From contig NZ_JAVHUY010000007.1 of assembly GCF_031085175.1 (NCBI RefSeq), positions 1-64,000 on the forward strand: DNA of 64,000 nucleotides, read 5' to 3'. The notes under the pieces are model-generated. The model was not told the DNA's origin and ran no database searches. It saw only the letters and a program-made list of their open reading frames with translations. The stretch is from Phytohabitans maris. GTDB lineage: Bacteria; Actinomycetota; Actinomycetes; Mycobacteriales; Micromonosporaceae. Positions 4,471 to 44,199 of the stretch are shown in pieces. Each line of letters starts with the position of its first letter. Position 1 is the stretch's first letter. Position numbers and translations under genes: made by a program.

Positions 4471-4535
4471 CGTCCTGCGCCTTCCCATGAGGAGATCCAA
4501 TTCGTATCCGCACAACCCGCCGCCGTCGCGGAGGA

Positions 4536-5438
4536 TCACCGTTTGGCCAGCCGAGCGGCCGGCGCCACGAAGGAGTCGTCGACGAGCGCGGTCAGGTCCA
4601 CGCCGAGCGGTCGGCCCAGTGCCGCCTCCAGGTCGGTCGCCACGCCGCGCAGCGGCGGCAGTGACGGGGTGAGCGTGCGCAGCGCGATGGCGAACAGGCC
4701 GTGCACCTCGCGCAGCACGCCCTCGTCGTCGAGCTTGCTGCACGCGGCCAGGTGTGGCAGCGCGGCTTCGATGTCTTCCTGGAAGAGCTTGGCGCCCTTC
4801 ATCGACCCCGCCAGGAAGCGGACGAGGGTCTCGGGGTTCTCGTCGGCGTAGCGGCGGCTGGTCACGACGGCGCCGCACTGGTACGGCTCCGGGTGGTCGC
4901 GGAAGTCGAGCAGGATCGGCAGCCCCATCCGGCGGGCCATCAGCGGCGTCGGGACGGTGAAGCAGATCGCGCTGACCTCGCCGGCGTCGACCGCAGCGAG
5001 CAGGGCGGCGCGGTCCGGGTAGTCGGTCTTGAACTCCACATCGGACTTCGGGTCGAGGCCGAGCTTGGTGAGCGCGCGGCTGATCACGACCTGGTTCTGG
5101 TCGCCGAGGCCGAACGTGCCGATCGTGGTGCCCTTGAGGTCGGCCGGCGTCTTGATGTGCCGGGCGCCGATCATGCCGAAGACGTTCTCGTCCTCCATGT
5201 TCATCACGTTGACCGGGTCGTGGCCGGCCATGGCCTCGTTGAGGATGCAGACGCCGGGGCAGGTGGCGGCGTCGACCTCGCGGCGCAGCGCGCCCTTGAG
5301 CGCGTCGCTGGTGCGCGGGTACTCCACCAGCTCGACCTCGACGCCCACCTCGTCGTAGAAGCCGTACTCCTTGGCCAGGGTGAAGACCGCGTTGACGGCG
5401 CCGGAGTTGCTGTACGAATGACGGAAGACCGGGGACAC
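4536..5438 (-). CDS. NMT1/THI5-like substrate-binding-fold protein, leaderless
   Basis: The 300-residue protein has the periplasmic-binding-protein fold of the NMT1/TauA/4,5-dihydroxyphthalate decarboxylase family. Examples are the stretches LKGTTIGTFGLGDQNQVV and AAVDAGEVSAICFTVPTPLM. It has no signal peptide or lipobox, so it should be cytoplasmic and may be an enzyme or sensor rather than an ABC receptor. The GTG start at 5438 has an AAAGGAG site six bases upstream, which fixes a start without a leader. It follows the racemase-like gene by 26 bases within the operon. Two more proteins of this fold occur at 10161 and 15424. Confidence 0.7.
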   Translation of the reverse strand: MSPVFRHSYSNSGAVNAVFTLAKEYGFYDEVGVEVELVEYPRTSDALKGALRREVDAATCPGVCILNEAMAGHDPVNVMNMEDENVFGMIGARHIKTPADLKGTTIGTFGLGDQNQVVISRALTKLGLDPKSDVEFKTDYPDRAALLAAVDAGEVSAICFTVPTPLMARRMGLPILLDFRDHPEPYQCGAVVTSRRYADENPETLVRFLAGSMKGAKLFQEDIEAALPHLAACSKLDDEGVLREVHGLFAIALRTLTPSLPPLRGVATDLEAALGRPLGVDLTALVDDSFVAPAARLAKR

Positions 5439-5464
5439 TGTCGCTCCTTTGTGGATGGTGGGTT

Positions 5465-6316
5465 TCAGAAGGTCCGCTTGCGGCGCCACCGCCGGGGGTG
5501 GTCGCCGGGAAACACCAGGCCGCTGGCGTCGACGCCGAGGTCGATCAGCGCCTTGGCGAGGGTGATGGAGGTGGAGAGCCCGTCGAGCACGGGTACCTCC
5601 CAGCCGATCTCGGCGAGGCGCTTCTGGACGAACGGGCGCAGCCAGAAGGTGCCGGAGCAGCTGAACAGGATGGTGTCGGCGCCGTCTTCCTCGATGGCCT
5701 CGACGGCCGCGGCGACCGCTTCCTCGACCGCGGCGGAGGGCTCGCCGCGCAGGGCCTTGCGCTTCTCCTCGTGCAGGTCGCGGCCGGCGGCGTCGTACCT
5801 GGGCCGGGAGTGGGGGAAGTTGATGCTGCGGATGGAGGCGCACCGGTCCGCGAACCCGTGCTGCAGCACCAGGTCGTAGATGTGCATGCTGTGGCTCTCG
5901 GCCAGGTCGACGAAGCTGAACCGCCGGCCCACCATTGAGGCCACGTGCATCTGGCTGAACGCGGACGAGGTGACCGGGATGCCGTACCGGCGGGCGATCT
6001 CGCGGGCCGCCGGGGCGCCGGGTTCGCCGCCGCCCAGCAGTACGATCGCGTTGTACTTCCCGCTTTCGCAGGCCTGCTTGACGATCGCGAGCCGGGCGGC
6101 GCCGACGAGCGCGAACTCCTCGCGGTTTTCCACGGCCCAGTCGCCGTACGGCGCGACCGGGCCGGCGAGCAGCTCCCAGTCCACATCGGACAGCAGGTGC
6201 GCGACGTCGGCGTGGTTGGGCAGGCTCTCCTGTTTGGTGCGGCCGCCCGCGGCGGCGGGGTGGCCGGAGGCCGCGGAGAGCGTGAACGAGCGGATCAGCG
6301 CGAAGCGGTACCTCAT
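5465..6316 (-). CDS. Asp/Glu/hydantoin racemase-fold enzyme
   Basis: The 283-residue product belongs to the Asp/Glu racemase superfamily (racemases, maleate isomerase, arylmalonate decarboxylase). The second catalytic-loop cysteine is visible in ADTILFSCSGTFWLRPF. The position normally holding the first cysteine reads PVTSSAFSQMH with no Cys. A single cysteine in the C-terminal half is the arrangement known from arylmalonate decarboxylase, so a decarboxylase or isomerase role is as likely as racemization. The start codon overlaps the permease stop by four bases (ATGA), so translation is coupled. Acting on an imported acid is an inference from context. Confidence 0.65.
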   Translation of the reverse strand: MRYRFALIRSFTLSAASGHPAAAGGRTKQESLPNHADVAHLLSDVDWELLAGPVAPYGDWAVENREEFALVGAARLAIVKQACESGKYNAIVLLGGGEPGAPAAREIARRYGIPVTSSAFSQMHVASMVGRRFSFVDLAESHSMHIYDLVLQHGFADRCASIRSINFPHSRPRYDAAGRDLHEEKRKALRGEPSAAVEEAVAAAVEAIEEDGADTILFSCSGTFWLRPFVQKRLAEIGWEVPVLDGLSTSITLAKALIDLGVDASGLVFPGDHPRRWRRKRTF

Positions 6317-8073
6317 ACTTGCAGGGCCTCCCGTCGGGCGCCGCCGGAGAGCATGGCGAGCGCGGCGACTACCAGGAACAGCACGATCTGCAGCAGGGTG
6401 AACGCGGCGACGACGCCGGTCGGCTGCAGCGCGGAGATGCTCAGCAGCGCGACGGAGAGCGTGCGGTTGCCGCCGGCGTAGAGGAGGTTGGACATCGCGA
6501 CGTCCCGCATGAGCAGGACGAACAGCAGCAGCCAGCCGCCGACCATCGCCGGGCGCAGCAGCGGCATCACCACCCGGCGCAGGGTCTGGCCGAGGCCGTA
6601 CCCGGAGACGCGGGAGGCTTCCTCGAGCTCGGGGTGGATGGCGCCGACGGCGGCGTCGACGGTGCGCAGTCCGTACGGGAAGTAGCGGATCGCGAAGCCG
6701 ATCGCGATGATCCAGATGGTGGCGTAGAGCGGGGTCTGCACGAGCAGGTTGAGCAGGCCGACCGCGATCGTCGAGCCGGGGATGGCAAGCGGCACGGACA
6801 GCACCACCTCGACCCAGCGCCCGCCGCGCATCCGCAGCCGGTTGACCGCGTACGTCGCGACGGCCGCGATGATCACCACGAACGTGGCCACGACGACCGC
6901 GAGCACCAGGCTGTTCCAGAAGGCGGAGAGCACCGGCAGCGAGTACGAGTTGCCCTCGAAGACGGTCTTGAAGTTGTCGAGCGTGAGCAGGTCGAGGTCG
7001 AGCGTGCCGCTCCACCGGCGCTGGAAGGCGGTGAGCGCCAGCGCGGTCATCGGCAGGATGACGGCGATGAAGACCCAGCCGAGGCAGAACGCGAACGCCG
7101 GCCACTTGGCCCAGCCGAGCGTCATCCGCTGCGGCGCGGACGCCTTGCCGGACAGCGTGTACCGCGCCCGGGAGCCGGTGATCCGGGACTGTAGCCAGAA
7201 GGCCAGCACCGGCACGGTGAGCAGCAGGACGCTGGCCGCGGCGGCGAAGTTGTAGTCGGCCGGGAACTCGCGCTGGATCACCTCCCAGATCCGCATCGGC
7301 AGCGGTTCGATCCCGGCCGGGTTGCCAAGCACCAGTGGCACGCCGAGGTCCTCGAAGCCGAGCACGAAGTTGATGATGAAAGCGGAGATGACGCCGCGGC
7401 TGACCAGCCGGAGCGTGACCAGCCAACTGGTGCGCAGCCGCCCGGCGCCGCATACCCGTGCGGCCTGCTCCAGCGCCGGGTCCATCTGGCGCAGCGCTCC
7501 GGCGACCATGAGGAACGCCAGCGGCGTGTGCGCGATGCCGACGACCAGGATGATGCCGTACTCGGAGTAGATGTTGAGGAACGCGCTGTCGGCAAGTCCC
7601 CAGTCGATGGCGAGGCGGTTGACCAGGCCGGTGTTGGGCGAGCCGACGTACTGCCAGCAGACCGCGAGTAGGAACGAGGAGAGGAAGAACGGCACGTAGG
7701 AGGCGAGCTCGATGAACCGCCGGCCGGGCACGTCGGTCCGGACGATCAGGAAGGCGAGCACCGTACCGACTACCGTGGCGAAGATCGCGCTGCCCAGGCC
7801 GAACTTGAACGACAGGAACGCCGCCTCGTAGATCCGTGGGGTGAACAGGGCGCGGTAGCTGTCCAGGGACCACACGCTGGTCAGCAGGCCGGTCCGCTTG
7901 CGGAGGCTTTCGTAGAGGACGGCCAGGAGCGGCACGACGACGGCGGCGGCCATGGCCCAGGTCAAGCCGATGACGATCCACCGGCCGGGCCCTGACTGCC
8001 GGAGGCTCCGGCGGCCGCCCCGCGCGGGCTTCGAGGGACCCGCGCTGGGCTTGGGGAGTGCTTCGACACTCAT
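6313..8073 (-). CDS. ABC transporter permease, two fused BPD domains
   Basis: At 586 residues this is a tandem permease of the Fe3+/thiamine/phosphonate importer class, with two binding-protein-dependent transport domains (about residues 30-300 and 310-580) and roughly 12 membrane spans. Each half has an EAA-like coupling loop: MDPALEQAARVCGAGRLRTS in the first, HPELEEASRVSGYGLGQTL in the second. One polypeptide therefore supplies both halves of the channel. It starts 3 bases after the binding-protein stop and overlaps the racemase-like start. It should pair with the lipoprotein at 8077 and the ATPase at 3304. Confidence 0.88.
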   Translation of the reverse strand: MSVEALPKPSAGPSKPARGGRRSLRQSGPGRWIVIGLTWAMAAAVVVPLLAVLYESLRKRTGLLTSVWSLDSYRALFTPRIYEAAFLSFKFGLGSAIFATVVGTVLAFLIVRTDVPGRRFIELASYVPFFLSSFLLAVCWQYVGSPNTGLVNRLAIDWGLADSAFLNIYSEYGIILVVGIAHTPLAFLMVAGALRQMDPALEQAARVCGAGRLRTSWLVTLRLVSRGVISAFIINFVLGFEDLGVPLVLGNPAGIEPLPMRIWEVIQREFPADYNFAAAASVLLLTVPVLAFWLQSRITGSRARYTLSGKASAPQRMTLGWAKWPAFAFCLGWVFIAVILPMTALALTAFQRRWSGTLDLDLLTLDNFKTVFEGNSYSLPVLSAFWNSLVLAVVVATFVVIIAAVATYAVNRLRMRGGRWVEVVLSVPLAIPGSTIAVGLLNLLVQTPLYATIWIIAIGFAIRYFPYGLRTVDAAVGAIHPELEEASRVSGYGLGQTLRRVVMPLLRPAMVGGWLLLFVLLMRDVAMSNLLYAGGNRTLSVALLSISALQPTGVVAAFTLLQIVLFLVVAALAMLSGGARREALQV

Positions 8074-8076
8074 GAT

Positions 8077-9237
8077 TCAGCCGCCGAACATCCCGACGAA
8101 CTCTTCCCGGGACTTCTCCAGCGTGCCGCGGTCCACAAGGGAGTCTACGGCGATCGCGTGTGCGGCGCTGAGGCTTGCCGGGGCGAACTCGTGCAGTTCG
8201 GTCGGCATCCGCACGTCGTCGCGGACCGGTGTGGCGGCCTGGTTTTCCACCATGATCTGGACGGCCTTCTGGCTCAGCACGAAGTCCATGAAGAGCTTGG
8301 CGGCCGACGGGTGCGGACTGCCCTGCAGCAGGCCGACACCCCAGCCGTCGAGGACCGCGCCCTCCTTGGGGAACGCGACCGCAAGTGGCACGCCCAGTTC
8401 CTTGGAGGTGTTGTGCGCGCTGTGGCTCTGGGTCACGGCGATGGTGAGCTCGCCCTCGGCGACCATCTGGGTGGCCACTGTGGAGTTTCCGACGCCGACG
8501 CGCGGCGTGTTCTTGGCCAGGTCCTGGAAGTAGGAGACCGGCAGCACGGACCGCAGGCCGTAGTACATGAACAGCGCCGACTCGCTGGAGGGCACGCCGG
8601 GCCAGCTCATCTTGCCCTTGAGTCGGGGGTCGAGCAGGTCGTACCAGCTGTCCACGCCGGCCGGCCAGGTCTTGGGGTTGTACACCGGCAGGTACTGGAC
8701 CGCGATCGGGGCCGCCCAGTAGCCGGGGTCGATGCTGACGAACTGCTCCTTGCCCTTGTAGGCGGCCAGCTCCGGCGACTCGTACTGGACGAGCATGCCG
8801 GCGTCCTTGAGTGTCTTGAAGAACGACGGCGAGCCGTTGAGTCCGACGAAGTCGGTCTTGACCTGCCGGGACTGCACTTCGGACTGGATCCGGGAGGTGA
8901 CCTGGCCGGTCTGCAGGTTTTCGAAGTTGACCTTCAGGTCGGGCAGCCCGTACAGCGTCTTGAACTCGTTGACCAGCGGGTCCTTCGACTCGGTGATGAT
9001 CGGGGTGATCCAGTTCAGCTCGCCCTCGGCGCGGGCCTGGGCGATGAGCGTGGCGACGCGGGTGCGCTCGTCGCCATCGAGGGTCTGCAGGATCGGCGCC
9101 TGCACGTTCGAGATGTCGACGTCGCCGCCGGCGCCACCGCCGTTGCCGCCGCAGGCGGTGGCGAAGGCCAGGGTCACGGTGCTCAACGTGGCGAGGACGG
9201 CGCGGCCCGGCCGTCTCGTTATCGCGGGGGGTGTCAT
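8077..9237 (-). CDS. Extracellular solute-binding lipoprotein (Fe3+/2-AEP type)
   Basis: The 386-residue protein begins with a basic N-terminus and hydrophobic core ending in a lipobox-like LAFATACGG, so it is probably an exported lipoprotein anchored by Cys. The mature part resembles SBP_bac_6/8 proteins of ferric-iron, phosphonate and related importers. Visible blocks include TDFVGLNGSPSFFKTLKDAG and LTIAVTQSHSAHNTSKELGV. The canonical paired tyrosines of iron-binding members cannot be confirmed by eye, so a small organic acid is as likely as iron. It is the first gene of the transport part, 67 bases downstream of the amidohydrolase. Confidence 0.82.
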   Translation of the reverse strand: MTPPAITRRPGRAVLATLSTVTLAFATACGGNGGGAGGDVDISNVQAPILQTLDGDERTRVATLIAQARAEGELNWITPIITESKDPLVNEFKTLYGLPDLKVNFENLQTGQVTSRIQSEVQSRQVKTDFVGLNGSPSFFKTLKDAGMLVQYESPELAAYKGKEQFVSIDPGYWAAPIAVQYLPVYNPKTWPAGVDSWYDLLDPRLKGKMSWPGVPSSESALFMYYGLRSVLPVSYFQDLAKNTPRVGVGNSTVATQMVAEGELTIAVTQSHSAHNTSKELGVPLAVAFPKEGAVLDGWGVGLLQGSPHPSAAKLFMDFVLSQKAVQIMVENQAATPVRDDVRMPTELHEFAPASLSAAHAIAVDSLVDRGTLEKSREEFVGMFGG

Positions 9238-9263
9238 GGCGTGGATGTCCTCCTCTGGACGGT

Positions 9264-9282
9264 CGGCACCGCACCGGTGCCG
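9264..9282 (-). terminator. Hairpin between amidohydrolase and transporter genes
   Basis: CGGCACCG and CGGTGCCG form a perfect 8-bp stem with a 3-base loop in the 67-base gap. It has no T-tract, so it may be an actinobacterial terminator, an attenuator or an mRNA stability element that sets a different level for the transporter genes. Confidence 0.4.
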
Positions 9283-9304
9283 GTTGTGAGGTGGGGACGC
9301 GCGG

Positions 9305-10147
9305 TCAGCGAAGCGCCGGGTAGAGCCGCTGCGCTGTCGCGCAAAGGATGTTTCGCCTGGCGTCGGCGGGTACGCCGGCCAGTGCGGTGGTCGCGAGCTC
9401 CAGCAGCGTGGGCAGGGACTGGGTGGCGGCGGGGAAGTTGGAACCCCAGGCGATCCGCTCCGATCCGAAGGCGGCCAGGAGCGGGTCGAGGAACCGGCGC
9501 GCGTCGCTGGCCACGAGCGGTTCGGTGTTGCGCATCGTCATCTTCAGGAACAGGCGCGGGTACTTGGCGAGCCCGGCCAGCTCGTCGAACGCGGCTCGCT
9601 CGGTGCCGGGCGCGATCGACGGGTAGGCCATGTGGTCCAGCACGATCGTCGCGTCCGGGAAGCGTTCCAGGACGTCGACCAGCTGGTCCACTGCGGACAG
9701 TCGCATCTGGACGCAGACCGGCGTGCCGGTACGGGATGCGGCCGCCCAGAACGGGTACGTGGTCTCGTGGTTGAGCCAGGCGGCCTGGCCCGGCAGCGTG
9801 CTGCCGGTGGTGAACAGGCGCACGCCGGCGACGGCGGGGTGCCGCGCCCATTCCGCGATCCGCTTCTCCGCGCCGGCGGAGAGGGGGTCGACGCAGCAGA
9901 TGGCGGTGAAGCGGTCCGGGTACCGCTCGGCGCTGTCGATCACGTATCTGTTGTCGTACCCGTAGGCGGTCGAGGCCTGGACGAGGGCGGCCTTGGCGAC
10001 GCCGGCGGTGTCCATCTCGGACAGTAGTTGCTCGGCGGTGACCGGTCGGGTGCTCGCCCAGCCGGAGACTGTACCGCCGACCGGCGCGAGCGGGTACGCC
10101 TCCCGGTCGGCGGAGAGGATGTGCGGGTGGATGTCGATGACGTTCAC
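9305..10147 (-). CDS. Amidohydrolase_2 family metal-dependent hydrolase
   Basis: The 280-residue TIM-barrel protein belongs to the family of ACMS decarboxylase, LigI lactonase and related hydrolases. The N-terminal metal site is DIHPHI (HxH). Others are VLDHMAYPS (His after strand 5-6) and WGSNFP, where the last motif has Asn in place of the usual Asp of GSDFP. That replacement could change or weaken metal-dependent hydrolysis. The GTG at 10147 follows a GGAGG site. It lies 13 bases after the DHP-decarboxylase-like gene, so both probably share the promoter at 11163-11192. A lactonase or decarboxylase step in the same catabolic route is likely. Confidence 0.75.
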   Translation of the reverse strand: MNVIDIHPHILSADREAYPLAPVGGTVSGWASTRPVTAEQLLSEMDTAGVAKAALVQASTAYGYDNRYVIDSAERYPDRFTAICCVDPLSAGAEKRIAEWARHPAVAGVRLFTTGSTLPGQAAWLNHETTYPFWAAASRTGTPVCVQMRLSAVDQLVDVLERFPDATIVLDHMAYPSIAPGTERAAFDELAGLAKYPRLFLKMTMRNTEPLVASDARRFLDPLLAAFGSERIAWGSNFPAATQSLPTLLELATTALAGVPADARRNILCATAQRLYPALR

Positions 10148-10160
10148 ACCAGGCCTCCGA

Positions 10161-11126
10161 TCACGCCGTCGGGTAGTCGCCGGGCGCGAAGATCGAGTCG
10201 AGCGAGGGTGGGACGTCGAGCAGCCGCTGCTCGGTGGCGTAGCGGACGAGCGCGGTGAGCGAGGCGGCGTTCGGCTCGATGCCGTACGGGATGGGGTCCT
10301 CCCGCTCCGGGATGGCGGCCGCAGCGGTCTTCTGCCCGATCAGCGTGGCCCGGTCGGCGCCGCCCTCGCGCTTGGCCGCGGCGAACGCCTGGTACAGCTC
10401 GGTGGGCAGGTCGGGATGCTCCTTGGTCAGATCCTCGCGCAGGGTGATGACGGCGTGGATGGGGTAGACGCCGGTCCGGCGGTACCAGTCCCGTTCGAGG
10501 GGCTCCGGCGTGCCGAACAGCGAGTAGGACGGCTCGTCGGCCGCGGCCGCCGCCTTCCAGCCCTCCCGGGGCGCGCCGGTGCGCCCGACACCCGCGTTGC
10601 CGGTGAGTGCGGCGTCGATCTGCCCGGCACGGAGCATGCCCTGCAGGCTCTCGCCGGCCGGCGCGGGCCGCACGTTCGGCGGTGCCGCGTACCCGGGCAC
10701 GTGCTCCTCGTCGTCGGTGATCCACTCGATGCGGTCCGGCTGGACGTCGAAGTCGTCGGAGAGCAGGCCGCGGACCCAGACGCCGGTGGTCACCGAGTAC
10801 GCCCGGACCCCCACCTTGCGGCCGAGCAGGTCCTGCGGCACCCGGATCCCCGACGACGGGTGGCACAGGATCGCGCCGTGGTGGAACTGGCGCTTGGTGA
10901 AGACCGGGATCGCCACGATCGGGATGCCGGCGGCGCGGGCCATCAGGTACGTGGTCGGTGCGAGCTCGGCGATGTCGAACGCGAGGTGGCGGACCATCTC
11001 CCGGTACGCCTTGATGATCGGCTCGGTGCGGACGAACTCGAGCCGACCGCTGGCCAGGCCGACGACACCGTCGGCGAGCGCTCGGGTGTGCGGGTAGGGC
11101 GTGAAGGTGGCCCGGAACGATCGCAC
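10161..11126 (-). CDS. 4,5-dihydroxyphthalate decarboxylase-like protein
   Basis: The 321-residue protein resembles 4,5-dihydroxyphthalate decarboxylases of the binding-protein fold: N-terminal TPYPHTRALADG, then ELAPTTYLMARAAGIPIVAI, and LLGRKVGVRAYSVTTGVWVR. No signal peptide is present, supporting a cytoplasmic enzyme. Known members convert 4,5-dihydroxyphthalate to protocatechuate; the actual substrate here is not proven. It is the first gene of the minus-strand operon, with a plausible promoter directly upstream. Its closest partner in the window is the protein at 15424, which shares the TTGVWVRG block. Confidence 0.72.
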   Translation of the reverse strand: MRSFRATFTPYPHTRALADGVVGLASGRLEFVRTEPIIKAYREMVRHLAFDIAELAPTTYLMARAAGIPIVAIPVFTKRQFHHGAILCHPSSGIRVPQDLLGRKVGVRAYSVTTGVWVRGLLSDDFDVQPDRIEWITDDEEHVPGYAAPPNVRPAPAGESLQGMLRAGQIDAALTGNAGVGRTGAPREGWKAAAAADEPSYSLFGTPEPLERDWYRRTGVYPIHAVITLREDLTKEHPDLPTELYQAFAAAKREGGADRATLIGQKTAAAAIPEREDPIPYGIEPNAASLTALVRYATEQRLLDVPPSLDSIFAPGDYPTA

Positions 11127-11162
11127 CGATTCCTCCCCTGGGCTTGAGCAACGAGTAAACGA

Positions 11163-11192
11163 TTGTTAGACACTGGTTGCCCTGATTGTCAA
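11163..11192 (-). promoter_or_regulatory. Promoter of the minus-strand catabolic operon
   Basis: On the minus strand TTGACA (11192-11187) is followed by an 18-base spacer and TAACAA (11168-11163), a fair sigma-70-type match. It lies 37 bases before the ATG at 11126. Confidence 0.6.
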
Positions 11193-11319
11193 GCGATCTG
11201 CGAAACCTCTTTGACACAAGCCAGCAATTCGCAGCACGACATCGCTGCTCATTGCGACTAACGGTGTTCGACCTGTGAGCGATCTGGATCACACCTGGGC
11301 GCAGAAGTGCTTGACAATC
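11184..11319. promoter_or_regulatory. Inverted 11-base repeats in divergent promoter region
   Basis: GATTGTCAAGC at 11184-11194 recurs as its exact reverse complement at 11309-11319. Each copy contains a TTGACA -35 box for one of the divergent directions; the plus-direction copy is TTGACA at 11311-11316, ahead of the gene at 11375, with only a weak -10 (TGACGA at 11334). A regulator binding both copies could co-control the two operons; the GntR protein at 18003 is the obvious candidate. Another related half, GATTGTTAG, lies at 11161. Confidence 0.5.
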
Positions 11320-11374
11320 TCACGCCTGCTGTCTGACGATCGCCAACATCCGCTGAACGTGTCAGGAGGTTCGT

Positions 11375-12550
11375 ATGCCCCACGACAGCTCGATCGTCCG
11401 TTCTGCGACGACGTTCGGACCGATGCAGACCGACTGGGAGCCACGGGTCGACATGGACCGGCTGCGGACCGAGCGCCTCTCCCGCACCCGGGCGGCCATG
11501 GCCGACGCCGGGGTCGACTTCCTGATCGAGCTGCGGGCCGAAAACGCGCGGTATAGCACCGGCATCAAGCGGCTCTACTGGCCGACCATCCAGCTCGGCG
11601 GCGGCCCGCTCGTCGTCCTGGCCGCCGAGGGCGACGCCGCGGTCTGGATCATCGACCCGGACTACGCCGCGCGTAACATCCCGTGGATCCCGGACGACCG
11701 CTTCCACACCCCGTACCAGATGGACATCGAGAAGGACGTCAACTCCTTCGTCGACGACCTGCTCCACTACTTCGGCTCGGCGATCGAAACCGCCCGGATC
11801 GGCGTCGACATCTGGTCCCCGGCGATGCACGATGTGCTCTGCGCCCGGCTGCCGAAGGCCCGGTGGGTCAACGGGCAGGAACTGATGATCAACGCGCGGC
11901 GGATCAAGACCGCCGACGAGATCAAATGCCTCAAGATGGCGTACGCGATCTCCGAGGCCGGCATGCAGGCGGCGGTCGACATCCTGCGCCCCGGCGTCCG
12001 CGAGTGCGAGCTCGTCGGCGAGTGCTTCCGCGCGATGTGGGCGCTCGGCACCGAGACCACGCAGTGCTCCGAGGTGGTCAACTCCGGTCCCGGCGCGCAC
12101 CCGTACCGGCGCTTCCACACCGACCGCATCGTCCAGCACGGCGACCTGGTCAACATGGACTTCGGCGGCTGCTTCTCCGGCTACTTCGGCGACTTCTGCC
12201 GTGCCTTCGTCTGCGGCGGCAAGCCCACCCAGGCACAGGTCGACCTGCTCAAGCGGGCGTACGACCTGCAGATGGAGCAGCTGGGCGCGCTCGGCCCGGG
12301 CGTCTCCCCCGCCGAGATCTGCGCCAAGCTGGGCCGCCGCACGCTCGGCCACGGCATCGGCATCTCCGCCTTCGAGGGCCCGCACCTGCGCGCGATCGAC
12401 GACTACGAGCTGCTGCCCGGCATGACCTTCTCGGTGACCAGCCCGCCGCTCGGCGAGGACGGCGTGGGCGGGGTACACCTGGAGGACGAGATCGTGATCA
12501 CCGAGACCGGCATCGACCTCTACTCCACCTACCCGTACACGCTGAGCTGA
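11375..12550 (+). CDS. M24 (pita-bread fold) peptidase-like hydrolase
   Basis: The 391-residue protein has the creatinase-like N-terminal domain and the C-terminal pita-bread domain of M24 enzymes (Xaa-Pro peptidases, creatinase, DddP). Metal-ligand positions visible are Asp in NMDFGG, Asp in YFGDFCRAF, His in LGHGIGI and Glu in HLEDEIVIT. The Glu expected in the (T/V)xEPG motif is Thr (MTFSVTSPPLGE, Thr355). It may therefore be a nonpeptidase C-N, C-O or C-S cleaving member. An AGGAGG site precedes the ATG. It is the first gene of the plus-strand operon. Confidence 0.75.
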   Translation: MPHDSSIVRSATTFGPMQTDWEPRVDMDRLRTERLSRTRAAMADAGVDFLIELRAENARYSTGIKRLYWPTIQLGGGPLVVLAAEGDAAVWIIDPDYAARNIPWIPDDRFHTPYQMDIEKDVNSFVDDLLHYFGSAIETARIGVDIWSPAMHDVLCARLPKARWVNGQELMINARRIKTADEIKCLKMAYAISEAGMQAAVDILRPGVRECELVGECFRAMWALGTETTQCSEVVNSGPGAHPYRRFHTDRIVQHGDLVNMDFGGCFSGYFGDFCRAFVCGGKPTQAQVDLLKRAYDLQMEQLGALGPGVSPAEICAKLGRRTLGHGIGISAFEGPHLRAIDDYELLPGMTFSVTSPPLGEDGVGGVHLEDEIVITETGIDLYSTYPYTLS

Positions 12551-12552
12551 CC

Positions 12553-13542
12553 ATGCCGCCATCCACCTCCACGCCCGCTGGCTGGCTCGTCGTCGGCCTC
12601 GGCCGGCACGCCGACCGGTACGGCCTGCCGGCGCTGGCCCGGGCCCGCCTCGGCGGCGCCGTCGCGGTCTGCGGCTCGGACCCGGCCCGGGCCGCCGACG
12701 TCGCCGCCCGGCACGCGGTACCGGCGTGGGGCACCTCGCTGGAAGACCTGCTCGCCGACCCGGCGGTCACCCACGTCTATGTCTGCTCCGGCAACGACCG
12801 GCACGAGCGGCAGACCACGCAGGCGGCCTCCGCCGGTAAGCACGTGCTCTGCGAGAAGCCTCTCGCGCCCGCGGTGGAACCGGCCCACCGCATGGTGGAG
12901 GCCTGCCGGCGGCTCGGCGTGGCCCTCGGCACCGGCTTCCACCTGCGGCACAACCCCGCACACCAGCGGGCGCGGCGGATGATCGTCGACGGCGAGCTCG
13001 GCAGTCTACTGTGGATCCGGATCGAGTACGTGCACGCACTCGCGCCCGGCGACACCACCACCCGCCTTGGCGCCTCCCGGGACATCGGCACCCCGAGCCG
13101 GGGCGCGATGAGCGGCACTGGGGCGCACGCCGTCGACCTGGCTCGCTGGCTGCTCGACGACGAGATCCTCGACGTCACCGCGACGATGGCCGAGAGCGCG
13201 GACGGGCCGCAGCGGTTCGTCCACGTCACCGGTACCACCGCCCGCGGCGTGCTCGTCACCCTCACCGCCGGCCGCTCCCGCCACCCCGCCAACGGCGTCA
13301 CCGTCGTCGGCACCCGCGGGCGGCTGGAGATCACCGGCTCGATCGGCGGGCCCGGGGCTGGCACCGTACGGGTCGTCTCCGGCGCCGGCGAGCAAGCCGT
13401 CGAGCTTCCACCGCACGATCCCTACACCGCTCAGTTCGACGCGTTCGTCGGCGGGACCGGCGCGTGCGCCACCGGCGCCGACGGCCTCGTTTCGCTCCAG
13501 GTCGTGGAAGCGGTCGAGCGCCATCTCGGAGGTGTTTCGTGA
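12553..13542 (+). CDS. Gfo/Idh/MocA family oxidoreductase
   Basis: The 329-residue NAD(P)-dependent dehydrogenase has an N-terminal Rossmann region (LVVGLGRHADRYGLPALARA; the usual GxGxxG is GLGRHA) and the family hallmark CEKPLA (HVLCEKPLAPAVEPAHR, about residue 99). The C-terminal alpha/beta domain carries the substrate pocket, including GTGAHAVDLARWLL with the conserved histidine. Members usually oxidise sugar or cyclitol hydroxyls. It follows the M24 gene after 2 bases and overlaps the next start, so it belongs to the operon. Confidence 0.8.
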   Translation: MPPSTSTPAGWLVVGLGRHADRYGLPALARARLGGAVAVCGSDPARAADVAARHAVPAWGTSLEDLLADPAVTHVYVCSGNDRHERQTTQAASAGKHVLCEKPLAPAVEPAHRMVEACRRLGVALGTGFHLRHNPAHQRARRMIVDGELGSLLWIRIEYVHALAPGDTTTRLGASRDIGTPSRGAMSGTGAHAVDLARWLLDDEILDVTATMAESADGPQRFVHVTGTTARGVLVTLTAGRSRHPANGVTVVGTRGRLEITGSIGGPGAGTVRVVSGAGEQAVELPPHDPYTAQFDAFVGGTGACATGADGLVSLQVVEAVERHLGGVS

Positions 13543-14564
13543 CCACCGTCATCACCAAGCGGCTCGGCTACCTCGCCGCCGCCGAACGCCTGCTCAGGGC
13601 GCTCGGACCGGTCGAGTACTGCCCGGACCAGCGCCCGGAGACGGTCCGCCGCCACCTCGCCGGCGCCCGGATCGTGCTGGCCACCAAGGGCGTCACGATC
13701 GACGGCGACGCCCTCGACGCCGCGCCCGGCCTGCGCGTGGTCGCCGCGCCCACCGCCGGGTTCGACTGGATCGATATCACGGCCGCGACCGCGCGCGGCA
13801 TCCCGGTCATCGCCAACACCGGCGCGGCGGCCGACGCGGTCGCCGAGTTCACCCTCGGCACCGTGCTCGCGCTGACCCGACGGATCGTCGCGGCCGACCG
13901 CGAGCTGCGCGGCGGCGCCGACTGGGCGGCCGTGCGCGACCGCTACTCCCGGGCCGACCTGCGCATCGGCGGCGACCTCACCACCAGCACCGTCGCGATC
14001 GTCGGCCTGGGACACATCGGGCGCAAGGTCGCGCAGAAGCTCGCCGTCCTCCGCCCGGCCACGCTGATCGGGTACGACCCGTTCCTGCCCGCCGCGCACG
14101 CCGCCGAGCTGGGCGTTGAGCTCTGCGCCGATCTGCTCGACTGCGTGCGCCGCGCGGACGTGCTGCTGCTGCACGTGCCGCTGACCGCCCGGACCGCCGG
14201 GCTGGTCGGCGCCGAGGTCCTCGCCGCGCTGCCGCCGCGGGCCTTGCTGGTCAACTGCTCACGCGGCGAGGTCGTCGACGAGCCCGCACTTGTCGAGGCG
14301 CTGGAAAGCGGCCGGATCGCCGGCGCCGCGCTCGACGTCTTCGCCGAGGAGCCGCTGCCGGTCGACTCGCCGCTGCGGCGGCTCGACAACGTCATCCTCA
14401 CCCCGCACATCGCCGGCGTGACCGCGCAGTCGGACGAGACCCGGGCCCGCGAGATCGGCGAGCGGGTGCTCGCCGCCGCGGCCGGCACCCGCCCGGTCGG
14501 GCTGGTCAACCCCGAGGTCTGGGACAACCGGCGCCCCTTCGACGGACCCTTGGAGCCGAAATGA
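13539..14564 (+). CDS. D-isomer-specific 2-hydroxyacid dehydrogenase
   Basis: The 341-residue protein has the two-domain architecture of D-2-hydroxyacid dehydrogenases, interconverting 2-keto and D-2-hydroxy acids with NAD(P)H. The cofactor fold shows VAIVGLGHIGRKVAQ. The catalytic triad is present: Arg in LLVNCSRGEVVDE, Glu in DVFAEEPLP and His in LTPHIAG. The GTG start at 13539 overlaps the preceding TGA, and the stop overlaps the next ATG, so translation is coupled on both sides. It could reduce or oxidise a 2-oxo acid intermediate of the island. Confidence 0.85.
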   Translation: MTTVITKRLGYLAAAERLLRALGPVEYCPDQRPETVRRHLAGARIVLATKGVTIDGDALDAAPGLRVVAAPTAGFDWIDITAATARGIPVIANTGAAADAVAEFTLGTVLALTRRIVAADRELRGGADWAAVRDRYSRADLRIGGDLTTSTVAIVGLGHIGRKVAQKLAVLRPATLIGYDPFLPAAHAAELGVELCADLLDCVRRADVLLLHVPLTARTAGLVGAEVLAALPPRALLVNCSRGEVVDEPALVEALESGRIAGAALDVFAEEPLPVDSPLRRLDNVILTPHIAGVTAQSDETRAREIGERVLAAAAGTRPVGLVNPEVWDNRRPFDGPLEPK

Positions 14565-15427
14565 TCTTCTGCTTCTTCGACGGCGGACGGCTCGGCACGG
14601 TCGCCGGCGACCGCGTCACCCCGATACCCGAGACGGTGGTCCCCGCGACCACCTCGCCGCAGGAGCGGCTGCTGGCACTCATCGATGGGTACGCCGCCCA
14701 CCGCGACGAGCTGGCCGCGCTCGCCACCGACTCCACATTGGAACACCGGCCGGTGGCCGAGGCGACGTTGGAGGCGCCGGTACCCTCGCCGCGGCAGCTG
14801 CTCTGCGCGGTGAAGAACTACGCCGACGACCGCCAGGGTGTAGCGGCGGACTTCTTCCTCAAGTCACCGCTGTCGATCGTCCCCACTGGAGCCACGGTCT
14901 CGCTGCCACCGGTACCGGCGCGGGTCTTCCATCACGAGCCGGAGCTGGCCGCGGTCATCGGCACCGGTGGCCGGGACATCCCGGCGGCCGAGGCGATGTC
15001 GCACGTCTTCGGGTACACCGGCTTCCTCGACCTCTCCGCCCGCGACGTCGGCACCACCTACTACATGAAGAAGTCGTTCCACACGTTCGGGCCGATGGGA
15101 CCGGTGCTGGTCACCGCCGACGAGATCCCCGACCCGCACGACCTGACCGTCGAGCTCTCCGTCAACGGCAAGGTGCGCCAGCGCTACTCCACCGGCCAGA
15201 TGGCCAACCGGATCGACCGCCTGATCGAGGTCGCCTCGTCGGTCAGCGGGATCGCACCCGGCGACGTGATCGCCACCGGCACGTACCACATCGGCATGGG
15301 GCCGGTGCAGGGCGGCGACCACGTACGGATGAGCGTCGAGCGGATCGGCGAGCTGTCGGTGGACATCGTCGATCCCAGCCACCGGTCGTGGCCGGTGCCG
15401 ACCGGGCAGGCGGTGACCACCGCATGA
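14561..15427 (+). CDS. Fumarylacetoacetate hydrolase family protein
   Basis: The 288-residue protein belongs to the FAH family, which cleaves C-C bonds or decarboxylates/hydrates dioxo acids. Family blocks are FFLKSPLSIVPTG, HHEPELAAVIGTGGRDIPAAEAM (acidic metal ligands EPEL) and the ending motif SGIAPGDVIATGTYHIGMG. The usual ending is GTPAGVG, so the substrate loop differs. It overlaps both neighbours by four bases. With the decarboxylase-like and aldolase genes it suits degradation of a ring-opened dicarboxylate. The exact reaction is unknown. Confidence 0.8.
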   Translation: MIFCFFDGGRLGTVAGDRVTPIPETVVPATTSPQERLLALIDGYAAHRDELAALATDSTLEHRPVAEATLEAPVPSPRQLLCAVKNYADDRQGVAADFFLKSPLSIVPTGATVSLPPVPARVFHHEPELAAVIGTGGRDIPAAEAMSHVFGYTGFLDLSARDVGTTYYMKKSFHTFGPMGPVLVTADEIPDPHDLTVELSVNGKVRQRYSTGQMANRIDRLIEVASSVSGIAPGDVIATGTYHIGMGPVQGGDHVRMSVERIGELSVDIVDPSHRSWPVPTGQAVTTA

Positions 15428-16317
15428 ACGCCTCGGTCGTCTTCGGCTCCGCCACGGTCGCCACCGCCCTGCGCGAGCACCCCTTCGCCACCGGCTTCGA
15501 CTTCGCCGACGTCAAGCCGATCCACAAAGCGTTCCCCGGCGTGGTCAACGACCTCCGGTACGACGTGGCCGAGCTGGCGCTGGTCACGTTCCTGCAGGCG
15601 TACGACGCGGGCCGGCCGCTGTGCCTGCTGCCGGTGACCGTGCTCGGCCGGTTCCAGCACCACACACTGGTCACACTGGACGGTGCGGGCGTGTCCACCG
15701 TGGACGACCTGGCCGGCCGGCGGGTCGGCGTGCGGTCGTGGAGCCAGACCACCGGCGTCTGGGTGCGCGGCATCCTTGCCGACGACCACCGCCTCGACCC
15801 GGCCCGCGTGAAGTGGATGGTCTACGAGAGCGGACACGTCGCCGGCGCCGCCGACCCCGACTTCGTGACCCGCGCCCCGGCCGGCGCCACGCTCCCCCAG
15901 GACTTCCTGACCGGCCAGATCGACGCGGCCATCATGGGCAACGAACTCCCCGGCGACGAGCGGGTGCGCACGATCATCCCCGACCCGGCCCGGGCCGCCG
16001 CCGGCTGGTATGGGCGCGTCGGCGCCGTACCCCTCAACCACATGGCCGTGGTGACCGACGCCTTCGCGGCCGCGAACGGTGACCTGGTCGCGGAGATCTG
16101 CCGGGTCATCGCCGGCGCGGCACCGGCGATGCCGCGGGTCAGCTCCTCCCCCGACCTCTACCCGGCCGGCTTCGACGCGGTCGCCGCCTCGCTCGACCTG
16201 GCCGGCCGCTACGCCTACGAGCAGGGAATCACGTCCCGCCCGGTGACCGCCGACGAGGTTCAGTCCAAACTGGAAGGTCTCACCGGGCACGACTTCGGCC
16301 GGGTCAAATCCGCATGA
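15424..16317 (+). CDS. 4,5-dihydroxyphthalate decarboxylase-like protein, second copy
   Basis: The 297-residue protein shares the binding-protein fold and the diagnostic RRVGVRSWSQTTGVWVRG block with the protein at 10161. Other blocks are YDVAELALVTFLQAYDAGRP and LTGQIDAAIMGNELPGDERV. It lacks any signal peptide. Overlap of both ends with neighbouring genes (ATGA) ties it to the enzymes rather than to the transporter. Decarboxylation of a hydroxy-aromatic or related acid is the best guess from the family; a binding role cannot be excluded. Confidence 0.7.
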   Translation: MNASVVFGSATVATALREHPFATGFDFADVKPIHKAFPGVVNDLRYDVAELALVTFLQAYDAGRPLCLLPVTVLGRFQHHTLVTLDGAGVSTVDDLAGRRVGVRSWSQTTGVWVRGILADDHRLDPARVKWMVYESGHVAGAADPDFVTRAPAGATLPQDFLTGQIDAAIMGNELPGDERVRTIIPDPARAAAGWYGRVGAVPLNHMAVVTDAFAAANGDLVAEICRVIAGAAPAMPRVSSSPDLYPAGFDAVAASLDLAGRYAYEQGITSRPVTADEVQSKLEGLTGHDFGRVKSA

Positions 16318-17312
16318 TCATTGACGTACACGGGCACTATACGACCGCGCCGGCCGCACTGGACGCGTACCGTGGGCGCATGCTCGCCCGGCTCAACAAG
16401 CCACCGCGTACGCGACTGGCGCTCCCGGCCGACGCCGTCGCCGCGTCCCTCGCCGGCTACGTGGCGCGGATGGACGAGCGGGGCATCGACATGGTGCTGC
16501 TGAGCCCGCGCGCGTCCGGGATGGGGCACGAGGTCGGTGACGCGGCGGTCAGTCGAAACTGGACGGAGGCGTGCAACGACGCGGTGGCCGCCGCCGTCGC
16601 CGCGTACCCGGGACGCTTCGCTGGGGTGTGCCAGCTTCCACAGAGCCCCGGCGTCTCCCCGGCCGAGTGCGTCACGGAGCTGGAGCGGTGCGTGGAAGGG
16701 CTCGGCTTCGTCGGCTTTGTCGTCAACCCGGACGTCTCCGCCGGCCTGCCGCCGCTGACGCCCTCGCTCGGCGACCAGTGGTGGGATCCACTGTGGGCGG
16801 CGGCGGTGCGGCTGCGGGTGCCGGGGATGGTGCACGCCAGCGCCACCCGGCATCCGGCCTTCCACCTCAACGGCTCGCACTACATCGCCCAGCACTACGC
16901 CGCGGTGATCGAGCTGTGCAACTCCACTGTGCTCACCGAGCGGTTCCCGGAGCTGTCGCTGATCGTGCCGCACGGCGGCGGAGGCGTACCGATGAACATG
17001 AACCGTCACCGGGCCCTGCACATCGCCGAGCACCGCGGGCCGTTCGACGAGGCGCTGCGGCGGCTCTGGTTCGACACCGCCGTCTACGACAGCGGCACGC
17101 TGCTCGCGATGATCGAGGCGGTCGGCGCCGACCGGTTCCTGTTCGGCTCCGAGATGTACGGCACGGGCGCCGCCGTCGACCCGCACACCGGCTCCACGTT
17201 CGACGACATCCTGCCCACGCTGCTGCCCGCCCTCCCGGCGGACACGGCGGAGGCGATCACCCACGCAAACGCGTTGCGCGCCTTCCCCCGGCTCGCGGGG
17301 GTGTTGGTGTGA
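16314..17312 (+). CDS. ligJ: 4-oxalomesaconate hydratase (LigJ-like amidohydrolase)
   Basis: The 332-residue protein closely follows the LigJ pattern: start MIIDVHGHYTTAP with His6 and His8, His174 (GMVHAS), His220 (VPHGGGGVPMNMNRHR) and Glu280 in FLFGSEMYGTG, where most amidohydrolase_2 proteins have Asp. LigJ hydrates 4-oxalomesaconate to 4-carboxy-4-hydroxy-2-oxoadipate in the protocatechuate 4,5-cleavage and gallate pathways. The next gene encodes the matching aldolase. ATGA overlap with the preceding gene and GTGA overlap with the next indicate one transcript. The assignment rests on family motifs, not on a database search. Confidence 0.82.
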   Translation: MIIDVHGHYTTAPAALDAYRGRMLARLNKPPRTRLALPADAVAASLAGYVARMDERGIDMVLLSPRASGMGHEVGDAAVSRNWTEACNDAVAAAVAAYPGRFAGVCQLPQSPGVSPAECVTELERCVEGLGFVGFVVNPDVSAGLPPLTPSLGDQWWDPLWAAAVRLRVPGMVHASATRHPAFHLNGSHYIAQHYAAVIELCNSTVLTERFPELSLIVPHGGGGVPMNMNRHRALHIAEHRGPFDEALRRLWFDTAVYDSGTLLAMIEAVGADRFLFGSEMYGTGAAVDPHTGSTFDDILPTLLPALPADTAEAITHANALRAFPRLAGVLV

Positions 17313-17968
17313 CCAGGATCCACGCCCGCGCGGCGAGCGCTCCGGCCGAGGTGGTCGCCGACCTCGCCCGGTTCGGGGTGGCCACCGTGCACGAGGCGTA
17401 CGACCGGCGCGGCCTGATGACCGGCCTCACCCCACTCGACCCCGAACTGACCGCCTGCGGGCCAGCGGTAACCGCCCTCTGCCACGCCGGCGACAACCTG
17501 ATGGTCCACGCGGCGATCGACACCTGCACGCCCGGCGACATCCTCGTGGTCGCGACGCTGTCACCCTCGACGCACGGAATGTTCGGCGACCTGCTCGCCA
17601 CGCTCTGCCAGGCCCGCGGCGTCGCGGCGCTGGTGATCGACGCCGGCGTACGCGACACCCGCGACATCCGCCGCGCCGGCTTTCCCGTCTGGTCCCGGGC
17701 GATCTCCGCCGCCGGCACCACCAAGCAGGCCGCCGGCTGGGTCAACACCCCCGTCGTCTGCGGCGGCGTCCAGGTCACCCCGGGCGACCTGGTGCTCGCC
17801 GACGCCGACGGGGTGGTCGTGGTCGCCACCAGCGACGCGGCCGAGGTGGCGGCCGCGGCGGCCCGCCGGGAGGAGCACGAAGGCGCGGTCCGCGCCCGAT
17901 ACGCCGCCGGCCACGGCAAGAACATCGACGACCTGTTACGCCAGGCCGGTGCCGCCGGCCTATCTTGA
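17309..17968 (+). CDS. ligK: 4-carboxy-4-hydroxy-2-oxoadipate aldolase (LigK/RraA family)
   Basis: The 219-residue protein is of the RraA/HMG-aldolase family. It shows FGVATVHEAYDRRGLM at the N-terminus, GDILVVATLSPSTHGMFGDL, and the metal/pyruvate-binding motif ALVIDAGVRDTRDIRR with the conserved Arg-Asp pair. LigK-type enzymes split 4-carboxy-4-hydroxy-2-oxoadipate to pyruvate and oxaloacetate, following LigJ. Its GTG start is embedded in the stop of the ligJ-like gene. It is about the usual length. Pairing with LigJ makes the aldolase call stronger than RraA RNase-inhibitor alternatives. Confidence 0.8.
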   Translation: MTRIHARAASAPAEVVADLARFGVATVHEAYDRRGLMTGLTPLDPELTACGPAVTALCHAGDNLMVHAAIDTCTPGDILVVATLSPSTHGMFGDLLATLCQARGVAALVIDAGVRDTRDIRRAGFPVWSRAISAAGTTKQAAGWVNTPVVCGGVQVTPGDLVLADADGVVVVATSDAAEVAAAAARREEHEGAVRARYAAGHGKNIDDLLRQAGAAGLS

Positions 17969-18002: not shown

Positions 18003-18692
18003 ATGTCGATCAGCACACCAGTGGAACCGTTCGAGGACAGTTCCGAACCCGGCACCGTCCTACGCGCCCGCCGGGAACTGGCCGCCGCGATCCGCCGCGG
18101 CGACTACCAGCCCAACCAACGGCTGATCGAAAGCGAGCTGACCGCCACCCTCGGCATCTCCCGACCAACGCTACGCGCGGTGTTCGTCGCACTGGAGCAG
18201 GAAAACTACATCTCCCTGGAACGCAACCGCGGCGCCCGCGTACGCCAGTTCTCCCCCGCCGAAGCCATCGAAATCCTGGAGACCCGCGAAATCCTCGAGT
18301 CCGCCGCCGCAGGCCTGGCCGCCGCCCGCATCCTCCCCCAGGAATGCGACCGCCTCGACACCATCATCGAACAGATGATCGAAATGGACCGCACCGGCAA
18401 CGGCCGCCAGTACTCCGCCTACAACCGCGAGTTCCACGCCCTGATCATCACAGCCGCGCGCCAGCCCACCCTCTCCCGCTTCATCTCCGCCACGCCCTAC
18501 CCCCTGGTCATGAGCCAATACCGCAACCAAGCCACCCGCCACCCCCGCGACGGCTCACTCCGCGAACACCAAGCCATCCTCGCCGCCCTGCGCACCAACA
18601 ACCGGCTCGCCGCCGAGGCAGCCATGCGCCACCACCTCGCCGCCACCCGCCGTGCACTCACCATCAAAACGGCCCCGCAGGACCGTAGCTGA
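18003..18692 (+). CDS. GntR-family transcriptional regulator (FCD type)
   Basis: The 229-residue protein has an N-terminal winged helix (LRARRELAAAIRRGDYQPNQ, then LIESELTATLGISRPTLRAV) and a C-terminal all-helical ligand domain of the FadR/FCD class (about residues 85-220, with YSAYNREFHALI and REHQAILAAL carrying likely metal-binding His). Such proteins repress catabolic operons until an acid ligand binds. It closes the plus-strand operon, 34 bases after ligK, and probably controls the divergent promoter region at 11163-11340. The first Met of the open frame is further upstream, but the ATG at 18003 fits the fold. Confidence 0.8.
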   Translation: MSISTPVEPFEDSSEPGTVLRARRELAAAIRRGDYQPNQRLIESELTATLGISRPTLRAVFVALEQENYISLERNRGARVRQFSPAEAIEILETREILESAAAGLAAARILPQECDRLDTIIEQMIEMDRTGNGRQYSAYNREFHALIITAARQPTLSRFISATPYPLVMSQYRNQATRHPRDGSLREHQAILAALRTNNRLAAEAAMRHHLAATRRALTIKTAPQDRS

Positions 18693-36247: not shown

Positions 36248-36286
36248 CGCTGTTTTGGTCCCTTCTTCCGCACAGGGTCGCCTCGG

Positions 36287-37809: not shown

Positions 37810-37825
37810 CGGTCTTCCCAAAGGT

Positions 37826-39094: not shown

Positions 39095-39106
39095 GGTTGC
39101 CTCCGG

Positions 39107-40852: not shown

Positions 40853-40865
40853 ATACCTGCCTTCC

Positions 40866-42242: not shown

Positions 42243-42256
42243 TGTGGATCTCCCGC

Positions 42257-43318: not shown

Positions 43319-43342
43319 GGGAGGTCTTTCAACCGCGTCTAG

Positions 43343-44195: not shown

Positions 44196-44199
44196 ATAA

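Follow-up and report, generated by a model that had tools for sequence, protein, structure and literature searches.

One of the known systems closest to the gene cluster presented here is the protocatechuate 4,5-cleavage operon (pcm) of Arthrobacter keyseri pRE1. Its genes are the equivalents of LigJ, LigK, LigI, LigAB and LigC, as given in a figure legend of PMC8431788. Two single enzymes are also related: LigY, the hydrolase of the meta-cleavage compound of 2,2',3-trihydroxy-3'-methoxy-5,5'-dicarboxybiphenyl (OH-DDVA), and the 4,5-dihydroxyphthalate (DHP) decarboxylase of Comamonas testosteroni (PDB 9jp7). Our cluster is found in Phytohabitans maris, in a stretch of 64,000 nucleotides which we call the window. 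It is the start of contig NZ_JAVHUY010000007.1 (C67) in a genome (G000) of 9.87 Mb, which is 97% complete. There are two divergent operons. The plus operon, in positions 11375–17968, has seven genes joined by five overlaps of 4 bases and one gap of 2 bases. The divergent operon, in positions 3304–11126, contains a second DHP-decarboxylase-like (DHP-like) gene, a LigI-family amidohydrolase and an ATP-binding cassette (ABC) importer; it was absent from the original prediction, made from the sequence alone. We consider it rather probable that the whole cluster degrades one imported acid-rich compound or polycarboxylate to pyruvate, without ring cleavage of the LigAB type.

The pcm operon and our cluster are both actinobacterial, and both combine an enzyme of the LigJ family with a LigK aldolase, an amidohydrolase and a Gfo/Idh protein. 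The differences are several. The window has no LigAB, and its LigJ-like protein belongs to a third lineage, with 39% identity to PcmD. Its amidohydrolase has Asn in place of Asp and does not match PcmC at E 0.01; it is 23–25% identical to two other LigI-type proteins. The window also adds an M24 hydrolase, a fumarylacetoacetate hydrolase (FAH) family protein, a D-2-hydroxyacid dehydrogenase and two DHP-like enzymes.

It had been observed that LigAB, LigC and LigI are not seen next to the plus operon; this extends to the whole genome. The LigB family PF02900 has no match in it, while the same search is positive in 4 of 14 control genomes. A profile built from six LigB/GalA proteins also finds nothing, and it is positive in 20 of 32 other records. 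LigC of A. keyseri finds 17 proteins of the Gfo/Idh type throughout the genome, the best with 65.9 bits and 29% identity. The Gfo/Idh protein of the window is not among them: it has 31% identity to the A. keyseri enzyme over 110 amino acids, and we have rejected it as LigC. LigI of A. keyseri gives a single weak match, with 34.5 bits. The three enzymes are absent from the assembly, although its 97% completeness leaves a missing piece possible. With the same reservation, no complete set of 4,5-cleavage genes was found elsewhere in the genome. The original suggestion that the pathway is entered by a compound other than protocatechuate is supported.

The best supported activity of the cluster would be that of a pyruvate-releasing aldolase acting on a 4-hydroxy-2-oxo acid. 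The product of the last gene is above the curated cut-off of NF006731, 4-carboxy-4-hydroxy-2-oxoadipate (CHA) aldolase (248.8 versus 179), and its best PDB match is 3noj (5.6e-58). We have compared nine positions of the Pseudomonas putida F1 enzyme, whose numbering was transferred by eye with the help of the alignment to 3noj: R123, D124, N71, H75, G144, T145, K147, R195 and E199 all have their counterparts. The roles of these residues are described in PMC5065237. In the aldolase tree the window copy is a sister of the CHA aldolases (86/87). A wider clade (97/91) takes in two LigY-linked aldolases and a third one (L146) falls among the CHA aldolases. The LigK-profile match of locus L105 is a distant protein on a very long branch. 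The gene looks like a working aldolase of the CHA or 4-hydroxy-4-methyl-2-oxoglutarate (HMG) type, as had been predicted.

All seven genes of the plus operon are found in identical order in HOG111, a metagenome-assembled genome of Micromonosporaceae. The identities are 80% for M24, 45% for Gfo/Idh, 66% for the D-2-hydroxyacid dehydrogenase, 70% for FAH, 56% for DHP-like no. 2, 56% for the LigJ-like protein and 67% for the aldolase. On the divergent side they are 60% for the amidohydrolase and 59% for DHP-like no. 1. The GntR/FCD regulator also adjoins the cluster in HOG111 (60% over 110 amino acids), and the ABC genes are partly relocated. Conservation of the seven-gene set while the transport genes were rearranged suggests selection on the set. 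Judged from the sequences, the order is beyond chance, since the whole of it recurs. The seven gene families of the original prediction are all present; their names are backed by Pfam and NCBIfam with two exceptions: the DHP-like proteins reach no specific model, and the LigJ-like protein reaches PF04909 alone. HOG111 was reached through the DHP-like protein; loci L024 and L038 both stand for one HOG111 contig, and L032 is a piece of the window. When the intergenic regions of the window and HOG111 were compared for a common regulator site, no shared word longer than 10 bases was found. Further copies of the M24 gene were searched at E 1e-60: there is one match in 397 genomes at the level of the order and one in 396 at the level of the phylum, in each case the window's own. 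Among plasmid records 22 match the M24 protein, all of them below 60% identity; the 20 listed have 29–31%.

We will now consider the LigJ-like protein. In the PDB its best matches are two 4-oxalomesaconate (OMA) hydratases, 2gwg (1.1e-70) and 6dxq (9e-67), followed by LigY (2e-47). Its scores are 165 bits for LigY versus 227–242 bits for the OMA hydratases. A tree of 59 members of the LigJ/LigY family has three groups, each on a branch with support 100/99: a LigY clade with 11 rows, a LigJ clade with 46 rows and the pair formed by the window and HOG111; with long branches and a midpoint root, this pair may be nearer either to LigJ or to LigY. When 2gwg and 6dxq are included in a quick tree, both fall inside the LigJ clade. 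The window protein stands outside the clade which holds the OMA hydratases 2gwg, 6dxq, A. keyseri PcmD and FldW, and it is also outside the LigY clade. Residues H6, H8, H174, H220, R231 and E280 (window numbering), which we take to be the metal and catalytic residues, are identical in all 61 rows compared: the window, HOG111, 48 of 48 LigJ and 11 of 11 LigY proteins. There are 19 positions which discriminate LigJ from LigY; the window protein is LigJ-like at six of them, LigY-like at five and like neither at eight. At one of these positions, where the LigJ rows carry Asp and the LigY rows carry Glu, the window protein has His. By sequence comparison the protein and its HOG111 partner are a third lineage, next to those of LigJ and LigY and sharing their metal site, and the label LigJ should not be transferred to it. 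This third branch is well suited to testing how one and the same metal site is adjusted to either hydration or C–C hydrolysis.

A further position varies inside the family: the Arg in the motif SPRA, which is Arg66 of the window protein and residue 69 of 6dxq. It is present in the window, in HOG111, in the six OMA-hydratase rows compared and in 11 of 11 rows of the LigY clade. In the LigJ copies which are linked to an HpcH aldolase it is replaced by Gly or Ile in 33 out of 38 (four have Arg; the remaining one, the copy on contig C16, has Lys), and Lys or Gln are found in six of the seven LigJ copies from loci with a Rieske gene. This position is a likely specificity switch: the LigJ sub-families probably act on different acids, with the window copy keeping the Arg.

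The original prediction took the LigJ homologue for an OMA hydratase, which together with LigK turns OMA into pyruvate and oxaloacetate. Its view of a lower pathway holds for the aldolase; for the LigJ-like protein, which lies outside the LigJ clade, the joint conversion stays a guess. There is perhaps one chance in a few that the protein is nevertheless a true OMA hydratase and that only the substrate upstream is unusual. Its best PDB matches, its metal-site residues and the SPRA Arg, kept as in the OMA hydratases and lost in many LigJ copies of related loci, are consistent with this, although LigY proteins keep the Arg too. The well supported branch which separates it from LigJ argues against it, as do 13 of the 19 discriminating positions, among them the His just mentioned. 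A LigY-type C–C hydrolase is still less likely. Such an enzyme would release an acid similar to 4-carboxy-2-hydroxypentadienoate, which would give HMG and then two pyruvates through the aldolase. LigY has the same metal-site residues, belongs to the same fold family and is also linked to RraA-type aldolases; two of the three LigY-linked aldolases (named as CHA or HMG aldolases) branch just outside the window pair, with L146 as the third. The C-terminal stretch of the window protein resembles LigY by eye, and five of the 19 discriminating positions are LigY-like. However, its score with LigY is lower than with the OMA hydratases and it falls outside the LigY clade. Moreover, in two loci a dioxygenase is annotated next to the LigY-type gene, and four out of five LigY-type loci have extra RraA-family genes; the scanned genes of the window cluster include no equivalent of either.

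The two DHP-like proteins are publicly annotated as ABC substrate-binding proteins, and they had been described as decarboxylase-like substrate-binding proteins. Their kinship with the decarboxylase is confirmed, and the second half of that name is not. In a PDB search at E 0.01, a profile built from seven of these proteins has only one match, the DHP decarboxylase 9jp7 (8.3e-40). The predicted model of DHP-like no. 2 (predicted local distance difference test score, pLDDT, 96.6) superposes on 9jp7 with Z 31.0, over 285 of 297 residues and with a root mean square deviation of 2.4; the next match is the sulfonate-binding protein SsuA, with Z 18.9. Foldseek also ranks 9jp7 first, before transport proteins. 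It is very improbable that these proteins serve transport or sensing, which would leave the cluster without a decarboxylation step. Besides the annotation there are weak Pfam matches with NMT1 and phosphonate-binding proteins; against them stand the profile search and the fold, the absence by eye of a signal peptide in either protein, and the separate lipoprotein-like solute-binding protein encoded alongside. We have rejected them as transport proteins: both belong to the lineage of DHP decarboxylase, by sequence for the pair and by predicted fold for no. 2.

Their identity to 9jp7 is only 21–23%. Residues W113, R115, R198, G200 and H206 (window numbering) are shared with 9jp7 in the alignment. 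On the other hand Arg104, Gln108 and Thr110, which are invariant in an alignment of seven sequences, are not found in it; in an alignment of 42 DHP-like sequences Arg104 and Thr110 stay at 90% or more. For this reason the substrate need not be 4,5-dihydroxyphthalate. No Rieske protein, and with it no Rieske phthalate oxygenase, is found among the window cluster genes scanned. The Gfo/Idh protein of the window may be a dihydrodiol dehydrogenase.

The divergent amidohydrolase has 2-pyrone-4,6-dicarboxylate hydrolases as its best PDB relatives, with weak scores. Its motif is WGSNFP, where LigI has WGTDWPHPN: an Asn takes the place of Asp248 of LigI, which is presumably catalytic. We have aligned 80 rows, 76 members of the amidohydrolase cluster and four references. 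Asn is found in 73 of the 76 (HOG111 is counted twice); the exceptions form a far branch, with Asp in L033 and L111 and Glu in L066. Three of the four references have Asp, including both LigI proteins that align; the one with Asn comes from a gallate-dioxygenase locus and does not align at the HxH motif. Given the Asn and its separate clade, we have rejected the identification of this protein with LigI. We also rejected the Asn as unique to the module of DHP-like enzyme and amidohydrolase: in two genomes 6 of the 39 PF04909 proteins have it, namely all four LigI-type copies of DHP loci and two of the other 35. In the best 80 loci described below, 63 of the 69 amidohydrolase genes directly adjoin a DHP-like gene on the same strand.

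The M24 protein is the best conserved of the cluster. Compared with three solved M24 enzymes it keeps four of five positions which we assume to be metal ligands; the fourth, a Glu, is Thr. The His of the HE.P stretch, to which we also ascribe a role in these enzymes, is Phe, and both changes are found in the window and in HOG111. It is unlikely to be an aminopeptidase and has probably been repurposed. Relatives with other jobs are ectoine hydrolase and the dimethylsulfoniopropionate lyase DddP, both by NCBIfam and far below the cut-off, and creatinase (PDB 1chm). Its high conservation suggests that it may make the first, substrate-specific cut.

We propose the following pathway. The two operons, probably each co-expressed, and the GntR regulator would serve one compound, taken up by the ABC importer. 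The M24-derived hydrolase and the two dehydrogenases (Gfo/Idh and D-2-hydroxyacid) would open and re-oxidise it, and the DHP-like enzymes, together with the Asn-type amidohydrolase, would remove a carboxyl group. Hydrolysis or hydration of an oxo-enoic polycarboxylate by FAH and the metal enzyme of the LigJ/LigY type would follow and yield a 4-hydroxy-2-oxo acid, from which the LigK-type aldolase would produce pyruvate and a second oxo acid, either oxaloacetate or pyruvate. No ring-cleaving dioxygenase of the LigAB type would take part. The aldolase step is the most secure part of this scheme. More tentatively, with the chances slightly against it, we suggest an undescribed pathway for a natural polycarboxylate, which would be degraded by an enzyme of the third LigJ/LigY type and a LigK-type aldolase and would at no point undergo ring cleavage by an oxygenase. 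Its skeleton would be opened by the M24 protein with an altered metal site, and its carboxyl group removed by a unit of DHP-like enzyme and Asn-type amidohydrolase which would recur in many uncharacterised pathways of Actinobacteria and Proteobacteria. That the cluster is the decayed remnant of a protocatechuate 4,5-cleavage operon which has lost LigAB is hardly credible: LigAB, LigC and LigI are missing, as it would require, but no reading frame is disrupted, the gene order is common to two genomes, and the M24, FAH and DHP-like genes are not among the A. keyseri operon genes listed.

The pairing of hydratase, aldolase and DHP-like genes is not peculiar to this genome; it is part of a widespread family of cassettes. 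A search with a DHP-like alignment, which covered 84,980 species with a single genome per species, gave at least 596 matching stretches, at least 581 of them relatives, from which the best 80 loci were kept. These loci, chosen by their DHP-like protein, are related by descent and their counts are not independent events; many of them end at contig ends or at 10 kb, and absence from a locus is not absence from the genome. Profile searches find the amidohydrolase in 58 loci, the LigJ family in 37 and a PIG-L-family protein in 8. The number for LigJ was 41 before L060, L071, L077 and L113 were dropped, which have distant amidohydrolases with 22–27% identity. LigJ and PIG-L are never found together in the best 80 loci: in the PIG-L loci (L068, L069, L080, L087, L096, L098, L101 and L103) the PIG-L gene adjoins LigK in the place where other loci have LigJ. 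The PIG-L assignment derives from PF02585 on one representative, and this is the family of the alternative OMA hydratase GalB. An aldolase of the HpcH or LigK type accompanies the hydratase in 44 of the 45 hydratase-bearing loci. LigB is found in 2 of the 80.

The order coxG-HpcH-LigJ-TPP-DHP-DHP-amidohydrolase, where TPP is a thiamine pyrophosphate enzyme, is common to many Actinobacteria; coxG is present in 21 of the 80 loci. Some of these cassettes have a divergent operon DHP-amidohydrolase-SBP-permease-ATPase, with SBP for solute-binding protein, like the left half of our cluster. The order coxG-HpcH-LigJ-TPP-DHP-(DUF3500)-DHP-DHP-amidohydrolase is conserved in L052 and other loci, from Rhodococcus, Streptomyces, Amycolatopsis, Nonomuraea, Arthrobacter and further genera. 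The actinobacterial HpcH/TPP cassette is similar to the window by its DHP-like gene next to an Asn-type amidohydrolase, its ABC importer, its hydratase with a pyruvate aldolase and the absence of LigB in the loci read. The amidohydrolases of both group together (Shimodaira–Hasegawa-like approximate likelihood ratio test, SH-aLRT, 91). It differs from the window in having HpcH instead of LigK, a TPP enzyme and a CoxG-like protein in addition, and Gly or Ile for the SPRA Arg; neither M24 nor Gfo/Idh nor D-2-hydroxyacid dehydrogenase is seen in it. We have also made the reverse test: of the 296 genomes of the class, 16 have a LigJ match, and the genome of the window is one of them. Among 16 actinobacterial loci of the LigJ clade, eight have a DHP-like gene, two have LigB, none has both and six have neither. 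The test took 17 of the 21 LigJ matches outside the window's genome and left out L135–L138, which are on the LigY side; L205, also on the LigY side and with a weak LigB match of 62 bits, is one of the 17 and does not enter the count of 16.

Several observations weigh against a pathway of the kind we prefer, which reaches pyruvate without LigAB-type ring cleavage. The aldolase stays below the cut-off of TIGR02798, the LigK model (214.4 versus 304.5), and the exact operon is found in two genomes only. We scanned chosen cassette hosts, 31 genomes and one plasmid, with the LigB profile. Nine of the 31 have a strong LigB-type match (E below 1e-70), four of them with internal stop codons, and 11 have weaker matches, from 8.1e-13 to 2.7e-37, perhaps with other members of the superfamily. 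Furthermore, a VOC protein which resembles extradiol dioxygenases is encoded in three cassettes from Burkholderiaceae, assigned by Pfam and NCBIfam in L033 and by clustering in L066 and L111; some relatives of the cassette may be ring-cleavage pathways. Finally, another type of LigJ and DHP locus, with a Rieske oxygenase, is present in the window's own genome (contigs C16 and C29) and in the family. The Rieske assignment comes from a LigXa-type C-terminal domain on the C29 copy and from clustering for the others, and it points to aromatic substrates in these loci. The VOC and Rieske proteins mean that for the cassette family as a whole "without LigB" is not the same as "without oxygen". On the other side, 22 of the 31 hosts have no strong match, and in 11 of the 31, as well as in the plasmid, there is no LigB-type match at E 1e-10.

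Two details of these loci can be added. The LigB-type genes of three Chelativorans genomes (G1077, G1081 and G1082, hosts of L091, L114 and L117) have one in-frame TAG. The loci on C16 and C29 (L021–L023) are two further LigJ and DHP loci with a Rieske oxygenase and a ferredoxin; the one on C29 also has a PanB-like protein and LigK.

Our literature search, made on titles and the openings of abstracts and mostly outside subscription journals, found no description of the window cluster or of its cassette relatives. Genes named "amidohydrolase", "ABC substrate-binding protein", "RraA" or "aldolase/citrate lyase" are located together in many bacteria associated with soil and plants, and such groups tend to be read as degradation or transport of aromatic acids. 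The repeated module joins a DHP-like enzyme and an Asn-type amidohydrolase to a hydratase and a pyruvate aldolase, in most cases with no LigB in the locus. Its substrate would account for a portion of carbon metabolism which is at present unassigned. The features of the cluster are given in Table 1.

Table 1 Positions, strands and assignment of the genes in the two operons and next to them
Feature	Position	Strand	Basis
M24 (pita-bread) family hydrolase, probably repurposed	11375..12550	+	Pfam
Gfo/Idh/MocA oxidoreductase	12553..13542	+	Pfam; not close to LigC
D-isomer-specific 2-hydroxyacid dehydrogenase	13539..14564	+	Pfam
FAH family protein	14561..15427	+	Pfam
DHP-decarboxylase-like enzyme no. 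2	15424..16317	+	PDB profile search, predicted model versus 9jp7
LigJ/LigY-family amidohydrolase, third lineage	16314..17312	+	PF04909, PDB matches, tree
RraA/LigK-type (HMG/CHA) pyruvate aldolase	17309..17968	+	NCBIfam, 3noj, active-site residues
GntR/FCD-family regulator, 3' of the plus operon	18003..18692	+	Pfam
Divergent promoter region between the two operons	11127..11374	.	Intergenic
DHP-decarboxylase-like protein no. 1, first gene of the divergent operon	10161..11126	-	Sequence comparison
LigI-family (PF04909) amidohydrolase, Asn (WGSNFP) for the Asp of LigI	9305..10147	-	Pfam, alignment
Extracellular solute-binding protein, lipoprotein-like N-terminus by eye	8077..9237	-	Domain scan
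Double ABC permease	6313..8073	-	Domain scan
Asp/Glu/hydantoin racemase family protein	5465..6316	-	Domain scan
NMT1/THI5-like protein, no obvious signal peptide	4536..5438	-	Domain scan
ABC transporter ATPase with TOBE domain	3304..4470	-	Domain scan

Other features are found in the rest of the window. There are no tandem repeats in positions 1–25000. A few kb downstream of the cluster, in positions 21575–24792 of the minus strand, we have found by eye the medium and large subunits of a protein similar to xanthine dehydrogenase. Two adjoining proteins similar to phosphoenolpyruvate hydrolase are encoded in positions 27369–29086 of the plus strand, the first of them assigned by PF09370; they have a relative on contig C16, near another LigJ locus. 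A second block of catabolic appearance occupies positions 34279–47861, with UPF0261-like, FAH, IlvD-like, MmgE/PrpD-like and Gfo/Idh genes. It also has a dehydrogenase dependent on flavin mononucleotide, a BKACE-like protein and a LacI-type regulator; in this block FAH was assigned by Pfam and the rest by eye. The contig opens, in positions 55–1719 of the plus strand, with a reading frame which by eye is similar to a transposase.

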